The position numbers and the translations under genes are program-made. The notes beneath the pieces were generated by a model. The model saw only the letters and a program-made list of their open reading frames with translations, searched no databases and was not told the origin of the DNA. A DNA stretch of 35,628 nucleotides from NCBI GenBank assembly GCA_944390775.1, contig CALXQQ010000007.1, positions 1 to 35,628 of the forward strand. The letters run 5' to 3'. Shown in pieces: positions 33,705 to 35,628 of the stretch; within the stretch, counting starts at the first letter, position 1; the number at the start of each line of letters is the position of its first letter. Origin of the DNA: an uncultured Alphaproteobacteria bacterium. GTDB taxonomy: Bacteria; Pseudomonadota; Alphaproteobacteria; UBA3830.

Positions 33705-33765
33705 AGTGTTTGATTTTAGATCGAATAAATGATAGTAATTTAGCTAAAATATTGGGAAGAGAGAA

Positions 33766-33813
33766 GTGAAGAAGATAAAAATTTTGCCTAGTAGGGGGGG
33801 CAACTACCTCTAA
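33766..33813 (+). promoter_or_regulatory. Leader frame with G7 tract, copy 1
   Basis: A GTG at 33766 behind GGGAAGAGAGAA opens the frame MKKIKILPSRGGNYL and stop (33811-33813). The seven G (33794-33800) lie within it. The GTG is 67 bases from the TTG of the pseudopilin frame, so as written they are out of register by one. Six or nine G would join them into one frame. Confidence 0.75.
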
Positions 33814-33832
33814 GTCAAAAAGATCAATAATT

Positions 33833-34549
33833 TTGACAACGATATCTCGATTATTCTCTCGTCGAGGAGCAATAGTAATAGAATTTGCGTTTAGCATTCC
33901 CGTGTTTATGGCTTTGATATATTATCTGCATGATGTCCCGAAATTGCAGCGTTATCAAGAGCAAATGGATTTCGTTGGACAGCAGGTAGCGCAGATGTTG
34001 CAAAATGTCTCACAACGAAGAACCAATAAGCGAATCACTCAGAGTGATATCGCAAATGTTATTCGTGCCGCTTATTTAACGGTATTTCCTGGAGTTTCTA
34101 TGCTTGCCCCTCAAATGGAAATAATCCCTTTTGGGTTTTTTGTGCAGTGTTCATTATTGTATATAGAAGGAGAGCCTAACAACAAAGCTAGTGTAAAATG
34201 GAGGTTGGTATGTTATATAACACAAGGGCCTTTTGTTAGTTTTATCTTTAAGGATATTTCTGGTCAACAATTGGTTGATCCGTCTGTAATTTCTCCGTCT
34301 TTAACTATTAAAAATGGAGAAGTCAAAATATTGATAATCAGTGAATTGCAGTATGGTAAGCCTTTTAGATTTGTTGATGGTCGGAGGTGTAGTGATGTTT
34401 CTTTCAGAGAGGCTTTTGGCTTCCTGATACATGATCCTCGTCCTTACGATACTAACGGTAATAGTCATACAAATTTTTGTAATTTCTTTACGAGCCACAC
34501 GATATTCGCGCCAGTGGCAGGATTGTTTGATGATACTCGTCCCCAATAG
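33833..34549 (+). CDS. TadE-like pseudopilin, array copy 1 (phase-variable start)
   Basis: The open frame from the TTG at 33833 encodes 238 residues: a basic leader MTTISRLFSRRG, then AIVIEFAFSIPVFMALIYYL, a TadE/TadG-like transmembrane start. Gly before Ala and Glu five residues after the cleavage point match prepilin peptidase sites (CpaA at 5360). A helical segment follows (QEQMDFVGQQVAQMLQNV) and a roughly 150-residue C-terminal domain with several cysteines, ending GLFDDTRPQ. No ribosome-binding site precedes the TTG. The better start is the GTG at 33766, which would add a basic extension if the G tract had 6 or 9 G. So the gene is probably switched off as written, or read by slippage or from the TTG. 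Its role is inferred as minor pilin or Tad-surface protein. Confidence 0.75.
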   Translation: MTTISRLFSRRGAIVIEFAFSIPVFMALIYYLHDVPKLQRYQEQMDFVGQQVAQMLQNVSQRRTNKRITQSDIANVIRAAYLTVFPGVSMLAPQMEIIPFGFFVQCSLLYIEGEPNNKASVKWRLVCYITQGPFVSFIFKDISGQQLVDPSVISPSLTIKNGEVKILIISELQYGKPFRFVDGRRCSDVSFREAFGFLIHDPRPYDTNGNSHTNFCNFFTSHTIFAPVAGLFDDTRPQ

Positions 34550-34607
34550 ATTTGATTTTATATAAAATAAGTGATAGTAATGATGTGATGAAATCAGGAA
34601 GAGAGAA

Positions 34608-34658
34608 GTGAAGAAGATAAAAAATTTGCCTAGTAGGGGGGGGGGCAACTACCTCTAA
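34608..34658 (+). promoter_or_regulatory. Leader frame with G10 tract, copy 2
   Basis: A GTG at 34608 behind AGGAAGAGAGAA opens MKKIKNLPSRGGGNYL and stop, with ten G at 34636-34645. The distance to the TTG at 34678 is 70 bases, again one base out of register. Nine or twelve G would restore fusion. Confidence 0.75.
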
Positions 34659-34677
34659 GTCAAAAAGATCAATAATT

Positions 34678-35394
34678 TTGACAACGATATCTCGATTATT
34701 CTCTCGTCGAGGAGCGATAATAATAGAATTTGCGTTTAGCATTCCCGTGTTTATGGCGCTGATATACTATCTGCATGATGTCCCGAAATTGCAGCGTTAT
34801 CAACAACAGATGGATTTCGTTGCGCAACAAATGGTGCAAATGCTGCAGACTGTGTCGCAACAAAGAAGCAACAAGCGTATTACTCAGAGCGATGTGTGTA
34901 ATGTTGTTCGTGCAGCGTATCTTACGATATTTCCCGGTGTATCAATGGTTCCAACAAGGAATACATGGTTGCCTAGTGGATGCTACATAGAATGCTTTTT
35001 TTATGCTGTTCGTGGAGAGCCTAATAATAAGGCAAGTGTGAAGTGGGTGAGACAATTATATTTATTGCGTGGTTCATATGTTTCAGTAGGGTATGGGCCA
35101 AGTCTATATATTGTTCAAAACAAACAAAATGTTCATCCATCAGAAATTTATCCTTCTTTAACAGTAAAAGATGGAGAAATAAAAATCATAGTGGAGTGCC
35201 ATTTGCGCTATCACTTAAATCAGTACTTTTCAGATGGGCGTAGATGTAGAGATGTTTCATTTCGAGAGACTTTTGGTTTTTTAGTGCATAATCCTGTTCC
35301 TGATATGAGAATTGGAGATCTGATGAGCTTTTTCGTTAGTCATATGGTATTTACACCAGCAGCAGGATTGTTTGATGATACTCCCCCCCAATAG
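34678..35394 (+). CDS. TadE-like pseudopilin, array copy 2 (phase-variable start)
   Basis: This frame also encodes 238 residues. The first 80 or so are nearly the same as copy 1 (leader MTTISRLFSRRG, AIIIEFAFSIPVFMALIYYL, then QQQMDFVAQQMVQMLQTV). The middle (about 92-165) differs strongly, apart from GEPNNKASVKW. The end is again similar (DGRRC-DVSFRE-FGFL, then AGLFDDTPPQ). Function is as inferred for copy 1: a Tad-associated minor pseudopilin cleaved by CpaA. The GTG leader upstream is out of frame by one base because of its G10 tract. Near its 3' end a C7 tract (35383-35389) replaces CGTCCCC of copy 1. Confidence 0.75.
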   Translation: MTTISRLFSRRGAIIIEFAFSIPVFMALIYYLHDVPKLQRYQQQMDFVAQQMVQMLQTVSQQRSNKRITQSDVCNVVRAAYLTIFPGVSMVPTRNTWLPSGCYIECFFYAVRGEPNNKASVKWVRQLYLLRGSYVSVGYGPSLYIVQNKQNVHPSEIYPSLTVKDGEIKIIVECHLRYHLNQYFSDGRRCRDVSFRETFGFLVHNPVPDMRIGDLMSFFVSHMVFTPAAGLFDDTPPQ

Positions 35395-35452
35395 ATTTGA
35401 TTTTATATAAAATAAGTGATAGTAATGATGTGATGAAATCAGGAAGAGAGAA

Positions 35453-35522
35453 GTGAAGAAGACAAAAATTTTGCCTAGTAGGGGGGGGGGCAACTACCTC
35501 CAAGTCAAAAAGATCAATAATT
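35453..35522 (+). promoter_or_regulatory. Leader frame with G10 tract, copy 3
   Basis: A GTG at 35453 behind AGGAAGAGAGAA opens MKKTKILPSRGGGNYLQ and continues, because TAA of the other copies is CAA here. It stops inside the pseudopilin's membrane-segment coding. Ten G lie at 35481-35490. The TTG at 35523 is 70 bases away, one base out of register. Confidence 0.75.
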
Positions 35523-35628
35523 TTGACAACAATATCTCGATTATTCTCTCGTCGAGGAGCGATAATAATAGAATTTGCGTTTAGCATTCCCGTGTTTATG
35601 GCGCTGATATACTATCTGCATGATGTTC
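35523..35628 (+). CDS. TadE-like pseudopilin, array copy 3 (partial, runs off right edge)
   Basis: Thirty-five codons are visible, nearly identical in DNA to copy 2: leader MTTISRLFSRRG, then AIIIEFAFSIPVFMALIYYL and the start of the following helix. The variable middle lies outside the window. Differences from copy 2 upstream and in the leader (TCT to TCC, ACG to ACA) are synonymous in this frame. Further copies may follow. Confidence 0.75.
   Translation, partial: MTTISRLFSRRGAIIIEFAFSIPVFMALIYYLHDV

Follow-up and report, generated by a model that had tools for sequence, protein, structure and literature searches.

The stretch of DNA analysed here (35,628 nucleotides, hereafter the window) is the entire contig C7 of the 1,010,210-base genome of an uncultured alphaproteobacterium (50 contigs, 97.9% complete), and at 33.7–35.6 kb it carries 3 tandem pseudopilin genes with a spacing of 845 bases. 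Each gene comprises a GTG start codon, a G run located 28 bases on (7, 10, and 10 G in copies 1, 2, and 3), a 65-base linker, and a pseudopilin of approximately 227 residues after the cleavage glycine. The GTG codons begin at 33766, 34608, and 35453, each with a purine-rich GGGAAGAGAGAA or AGGAAGAGAGAA upstream, and the mature proteins begin at the glycine of the motif RRG/AI(V/I)IEF, at 33866, 34711, and 35556, respectively. The features of the 3 copies are as follows.

33766–33793, + strand: leader of copy 1, GTG plus the codons up to the tract (MKKIKILPS), with the ribosome-binding-site-like GGGAAGAGAGAA directly upstream
33794–33800, + strand: G tract of copy 1, 7 G, one above the in-frame register
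33801–33865, + strand: linker of copy 1, open in the pilin frame (ATTSKSKRSIILTTISRLFSRR)
33866–34549, + strand: mature TadE/TadF-like pseudopilin of copy 1, from the cleavage-motif glycine to the stop codon
34608–34635, + strand: leader of copy 2, starting with GTG (MKKIKNLPS)
34636–34645, + strand: G tract of copy 2, 10 G, one too many
34646–34710, + strand: linker of copy 2, open in the pilin frame
34711–35394, + strand: mature pseudopilin of copy 2, the copy with the AlphaFold2 model (pLDDT 93.6, 46-residue N-terminal helix, beta-rich head)
35453–35480, + strand: leader of copy 3, starting with GTG (MKKTKILPS)
35481–35490, + strand: G tract of copy 3, 10 G, one too many
35491–35628, + strand: linker and start of the mature pseudopilin of copy 3, up to the contig end; an exact 127-bp overlap leads into contig C31, where the gene goes on

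In all 3 copies, the GTG frame meets the tract one base off the pilin frame, with one G too many. The leader frame of copies 1 and 2 hits a stop codon shortly past the tract (GGNYL-stop), and in copy 3 a T>C change abolishes this stop, so that the frame continues for about 30 codons. The GTG leaders, the tracts of 7, 10, and 10 G, and the one-base offset described in the original prediction, which was made from the letters alone, were confirmed base by base. A run of 7 C also occurs at 35383–35389, just before the stop codon of copy 2 (CGTCCCC in copy 1), where slippage could change the C-terminus.

The original prediction treated these genes as a local triplet; the 3 copies are real, but the family extends over the whole genome. 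This 1.01-Mb genome contains about 14 TadE/TadF-like pseudopilin genes, most of which have a tract of 7–11 G located between a start codon with a ribosome-binding site and the pilin frame. Only 13 runs of at least 8 G exist genome-wide, and 10 of them are at this position before homologous pilin genes (contigs C2, C6, C7 (two), C10, C22, C25, C31 (two), and C33), a placement that is not due to chance (binomial P ~1e-24 for 13 × 170 nt). With the G7 of window copy 1, the leader-tract-linker layout is found at 11 places. A pilin profile search of the genome returned 15 matches, among which two pairs are single genes split over contig joins (C7 copy 3/C31, 127 bases exact; C6/C44, 120 bases). The copy at C2:77738 has no tract and starts at an ordinary ATG. 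The copy at C31:14174 (G10) is in frame with its own ATG leader (MRNLTN), and its near-twin at C31:13099 (G8) is out of frame. A further run, of 9 G at G000:C2:69841, is located away from the pilin genes in a short open reading frame (ORF) beside a gene that looks tRNA-like. A distant-DNA search of plasmids gave matches to YmdB genes only.

The mature proteins have the features of prepilin-type proteins. The glycine at position 1 and the glutamate at position 6 of the cleavage motif are invariant in 60 aligned mature sequences, and the pilin frames are intact over about 250 codons in nearly all copies. The AlphaFold2 prediction (60 sequences; pTM 0.88), in which the N-terminal helix spans residues 2–47, is as expected of a pilin. 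The label "TadE-like" given in the original prediction appears to hold at the family level, where Pfam TadE matches 30 of the 60 members (best 1.6e-5) and TadF matches 6; the window copies themselves match TadF with E-values of 0.0015–0.017, below the curated cut-offs. Pfam scans of family members gave no Opa match, a sequence search of the Protein Data Bank (PDB) returned no match, and a fold comparison with the PDB returned no significant match.

Further copies of the same layout, for which the original prediction had proposed a search, are present both elsewhere in this genome and in its relatives. Of 37 searched genomes of the family, counting the own genome, 35 contain homologues, and a single genome has as many as 42 matches; 24 genomes from other families contain none. 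The close named homologues belong to the Holosporaceae metagenome-assembled genomes Gx481_bin64 and Ncb351_bin115, whose isolate names possibly denote a termite-gut series. We tabulated most of the listed homologue genes of the own genome and the relatives together with their upstream DNA; 87 of these genes have a tract of at least 7 G within 300 bases of the cleavage site. For each gene, the start was taken as the best ATG, GTG, or TTG with a ribosome-binding site and an open frame to the tract. A start codon open as far as the tract exists in all 87 genes, most with ribosome-binding sites; a few of the choices are weak (some in G004, G005, G010, G030, and G031), including those of two of the seven in-frame genes. 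By this measure, the tract has one G in excess in 42 genes, lacks one in 38, and is in frame in 7. Two of five further genes with longer linkers are in frame, as is none of 17 further G020 genes, a biased sample because these genes were picked via their tracts; with these additions the in-frame total is 9 of 109. The two offsets coexist inside single genomes, for example G017 and G033, and several well-sampled genomes have about one in-frame tract copy each (G000 C31:14174, G012 C2:120682, G034 C22:1809, and G033 C17).

Tracts accompany copy number. They are present in 97 of 111 genes of genomes with at least 9 copies versus 12 of 40 genes in the others (the biased G020 sample contributes 17 genes), an association seen within genera g4 and g5 and not significant within g6, with g1 represented by one genome. 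The layout recurs in four genera. A gene tree labelled by tract presence requires at least 21 tract-state changes, which indicates frequent gain and loss and does not allow a single origin to be traced. Set apart in the tree is a deep clade of six tract-less genes from six genomes, which may represent a constitutive TadE/F-type gene. The copies at G034:C26:1891 and G004:C12:3706 have an interrupted or shortened tract (GGAGGG and G5), are in frame with an ATG, and are apparently locked on. Very long linkers of 370–856 nt with an open pilin frame occur at G027:C14:1329, C72:8840, and C99:7612 and at G033:C17:14366, which implies prepilin leaders of approximately 130–300 residues.

Several lines of evidence indicate that leader and pilin are parts of one protein: (i) in 86 of 87 genes, the pilin frame runs without a stop from tract to cleavage site, whereas the other frames are open in 31 and 12 genes and shuffling predicts 21.7; (ii) for linkers longer than 60 nt, the pilin frame is open in 48 of 48 and the other frames in 0 and 1, and the tract selection imposed no open pilin frame on the linkers; (iii) 58 of the 87 genes lack any possible start (ATG, GTG, or TTG) in the pilin frame past the tract, which makes use of the leader obligatory, and 22 further genes have only a TTG there, without a ribosome-binding site; (iv) in the linkers of G012, 513 of 1143 single changes are synonymous in the pilin frame versus 238 expected, compared with 183 of 961 (247 expected) in the leader frame and 343 of 987 (229 expected) in the remaining frame, and the linkers of G033 and G034 show a synonymous excess in the same direction; and (v) the low-copy relatives G013, G021, and G024 (one or two copies) have a homologous leader and linker in frame with no tract. 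The tract-less leader M.WFSKIDGG (MMKWFSKIDGGEQRPENQKKSN...) aligns with MKWFAKKVFD-(tract)-KDLKNQEKSY, and these genes may be regarded as natural examples of the joined leader-pilin product. The TTG codons at 33833 and 34678 were considered as a general start of a shorter form and rejected, given the 58 copies that have no start codon after the tract; the view of the original prediction that the leader is required, rather than an internal start, therefore stands. Its argument from synonymous differences was less secure, as about three window sites underlie it. The frame in which the post-tract DNA element CAANTNCCTCTAAGGCAA is read varies among the copies (GATASKAK, GGQLPLRQ, and GGKFLKGN), and its conservation alone is therefore not coding evidence; far stronger evidence for translation of the stretch is the open-frame test over the 87 copies.

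The same counts bear on whether these are simply decaying pseudogenes with random frameshifts, as nominal frameshifts in a reduced 1.0-Mb genome might suggest. We find this hardly credible, because the frameshifts are located at the G tract, the pilin frames are intact, the linkers are open in all but one of the tabulated genes, and the arrangement recurs across genera.

Tract length differs between otherwise identical copies. The two C31 copies (G10 and G8) have 0 differences in 110 flanking bases (50 before and 60 after the tract), and the same holds for two loci of G009 (G9 and G10), which are separate loci because the sequences upstream of their common block are unrelated. Among close pairs (at least 90% identity), 5 of 13 differ in tract length. 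These comparisons indicate that tract length changes faster than its flanks, weakly so in genus g4. Outside g4, the on/off state of a gene matches that of its nearest relative in 28 of 58 cases, with a shuffle mean of 26.3; agreement no higher than chance would be expected if the switch had flipped after the genes diverged. If the out-of-frame lengths were instead assembly errors, the real tracts would all be in frame and the genes would be ordinary intact paralogues. G homopolymers are difficult for short reads, and a G-tract reference length in Bifidobacterium disagreed with the main population (PMC9187656). However, 80 of the 87 copies would need to be misassembled, some with a G in excess and others with one missing, across many independent assemblies; random mistakes would leave many more copies in frame, and tract-less copies of the same genomes assemble in frame, so that we regard this explanation as very improbable.

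The copies also bear signs of exchange. In the C31 pair, identity is 96–100% over the first ~400 bases, a block that begins ahead of the start codon and reaches into the N-terminal domain, and mostly 54–78% over the rest; the window copies have an identity profile of the same shape. Such a profile is the mark of a 5' module spread between loci by segmental conversion or copying. RecA was found in the genome, which makes gene conversion possible; in G002 and G007 (genus g3), a RecA match is absent, and these genomes have few pilin copies and no tracts among those examined. A different use of such exchange would be that of Neisseria pilE/pilS, in which the out-of-frame copies are donors, silenced by the tract, for gene conversion into one in-frame locus. 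The finding that several well-sampled genomes have about one in-frame tract copy each, the sharp 5' identity blocks between loci, and the presence of RecA are in line with this scheme, which is compatible with tract switching as well. As each copy has its own start, mostly with a ribosome-binding site, and a frame that is open before and after the tract, as the observed conversion blocks span the 5' end and not the variable 3' end, and as the in-frame copy is not tied to any demonstrated common locus, we consider silent cassettes rather improbable.

We propose that this family is probably a repertoire of phase-variable Tad minor (tip) pilins that resembles Opa of Neisseria in its construction. 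In this model, the window genes would belong, all three, to a scattered multi-copy family that encodes Tad minor (TadE/TadF-type) pseudopilins, each with a hypermutable G tract within the leader-peptide coding region. Translation would begin a few codons ahead of the tract, at a GTG or ATG that has a ribosome-binding site, and slipped-strand mispairing during replication would add or remove single Gs. Depending on the tract length, the ribosome would then either terminate after a short peptide (off) or continue into the pilin (on). With most copies off and about one on in an assembled genome, the Tad pilus of a cell would display one or a few of at least a dozen head-domain variants, with differing ones displayed across the population. 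Segmental gene conversion would keep the 5' module (leader, tract, and N-terminal helix) alike, whereas the head domains diverge. Replication slippage as the switch is our inference, and the rarity of in-frame copies points to a "copy-selecting" system in which few variants would be expressed at a time. The system may serve to vary how the cell interacts with a eukaryotic host, with other symbionts of that host, or with phages. The interpretation of the window in the original prediction is thus supported by the sequences of the wider family.

The following observations weigh against this model: (i) in-frame copies (7 of 87) are below the third expected of a random walk (P ~6e-10 assuming independence, although the copies are not independent), and selection or population averaging must therefore be added; (ii) in genus g4 (G012 and G020), 37 of 39 pilin copies have exactly G9, with the same offset, one too few, in 33 of 39; (iii) the linkers of G017 have no synonymous excess (54 of 255 versus 61.6); (iv) loss of mismatch repair, considered as the source of tract instability, was rejected because 39 of 41 genomes, the own genome among them, have MutS, and the switching rate need not be high; and (v) the tract lengths are those of assembled sequences, and assemblies of G tracts can err. 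As to the first, if each cell showed one variant out of a dozen, the population consensus would read off everywhere, which would fit a repertoire used a few at a time; the scarcity can also be read as selection for the off state.

The second is not predicted by free slippage and makes slippage at the RNA or ribosome level the main rival. Here the tract would be held out of frame by design, and RNA polymerase slippage or ribosomal frameshifting would yield every pilin, dozens of them simultaneously, at a low and steady dose set by tract length, so that the G run tunes a mixed population of minor pilins and is not an on/off switch. Minor pilins are required in small amounts, in-frame alleles are rare everywhere, and the linkers remain open in nominally off genes, all of which suit such recoding; in g4, where it is most plausible, a −1 shift on GGG GGG GGG would repair the nearly fixed G9. 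However, no single programmed shift fits genomes that contain both offsets (G017 and G033), nearest relatives outside g4 do not keep their state, and copies with identical flanks differ in tract length. Slippage is also less established on G runs than on A/T runs in bacteria. Overall, recoding appears unlikely.

The apparatus for a Tad pilus is encoded on the same contig, in a block from 5360 to 14149.

5360–5929, + strand: prepilin peptidase
5938–7290, + strand: CpaB
7320–8849, + strand: secretin CpaC
8864–9571, + strand: CpaD
9584–10822, + strand: CpaE-like ATPase
10861–12216, + strand: CpaF ATPase
12164–13186, + strand: TadB
13190–14149, + strand: TadC

In the Tad-type Kil system of Myxococcus, minor pilins of the TadE/F/G type with variable exposed domains are proposed to be interchangeable tips (PMC12075869). 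By this analogy, the family proteins may be tip or minor subunits of the Tad pilus, and assembly into its tip would be their likely fate.

G tracts occur near other genes as well. In G022, which has 54 runs of at least 8 G and only 2 pilin matches, tracts of 11 and 15 G precede Flp-like major-pilin genes at C18:14093 (− strand; RGAILIEYVLCIAFIGGMAIWGL) and C4:7444 (− strand; GASLVETVLLAALLIIAAIWTLGLL), respectively, and the poly-G lock may thus extend beyond the TadE/F-like family. In G012, G9–G10 tracts are located inside in-frame long ORFs of other kinds (C1:28128, C3:67495, C1:144014, C11:33137, and C11:43911), which by eye encode multi-pass membrane, epimerase-like, and methyltransferase-like proteins; this suggests wider contingency genes, perhaps for surface sugars. 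In the window, an in-frame G7 run lies at 2961–2967 within an apparent IF2 (infB) gene. The window also contains three genes with BspA-type leucine-rich repeats, which are unexpected in a 1-Mb alphaproteobacterial genome and are possible other surface or host-contact proteins.

16655–18025, − strand: BspA-type leucine-rich repeat gene
24867–26183, + strand: BspA-type leucine-rich repeat gene
27114–28211, − strand: BspA-type leucine-rich repeat gene

Searches of the open-access literature turned up neither phase-variable Tad minor pilins nor any phase variation in Holosporales, and a 2025 review of Holosporales makes no mention of pili or phase variation. The nearest known systems are found elsewhere. 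Neisseria pilE and pilS form a multi-copy pilin family with a conserved N-terminus, a variable C-terminus, and recombination between copies, in which the pilS copies have no 5' ends and promoters; unlike pilS, each copy here has its own start, mostly with a ribosome-binding site, and its own tract. The opa genes contain a CTCTT pentamer repeat in the leader-peptide coding region, and the opa loci recombine. In Neisseria gonorrhoeae, about 11 dispersed opa genes undergo stochastic phase variation at each locus (PMC3745409). The present family resembles opa as a dispersed multi-locus family of surface proteins with a start and a tract at each locus. It differs in that Opa is a beta-barrel with a pentamer repeat, whereas here a Tad pseudopilin with a mononucleotide G tract is found in alphaproteobacterial relatives of the Holosporaceae, with nearly all copies off in the assembly; the likeness to Opa is mechanistic only, with no homology to Opa in the Pfam scans.

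Gene by gene, the closest parallel is the sortase-dependent pilus of Bifidobacterium breve, in which a tract of G10–G12 in the first gene of the cluster splits two frames, the second of which has no initiation of its own, and at one locus the two frames become joined when a G is lost (G9); tract lengths are mixed in the population, vary within cultures, and shifted in the mouse gut (PMC9187656). In both cases, a G tract splits a pilus gene into two frames. However, this actinobacterium has one or two sortase-dependent clusters, compared with at least a dozen Tad pseudopilin copies here. The Myxococcus Kil system likewise has Tad minor pilins with a conserved N-terminal helix and variable exposed domains in several sets per genome, but it comprises four sets, and the available part of its description reports no poly-G switch (PMC12075869). 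Poly-G tracts in surface genes drive phase variation in Campylobacter and Neisseria (PMC6321876, PMC5953494), in gene families and organisms other than those described here, where 10 of the 13 genomic runs of at least 8 G belong to a single family. Two themes meet here, namely the well-known poly-G switching of pathogens and the recent suggestion that interchangeable minor-pilin tips give Tad pili their function. A bacterial family with reduced genomes holds large minor-pilin libraries (up to 42 homologues) with a G-tract lock on nearly every copy, and the lock occurs where copy number has expanded, in several genera, which suggests that surface diversification in such symbionts is as active as in pathogens.

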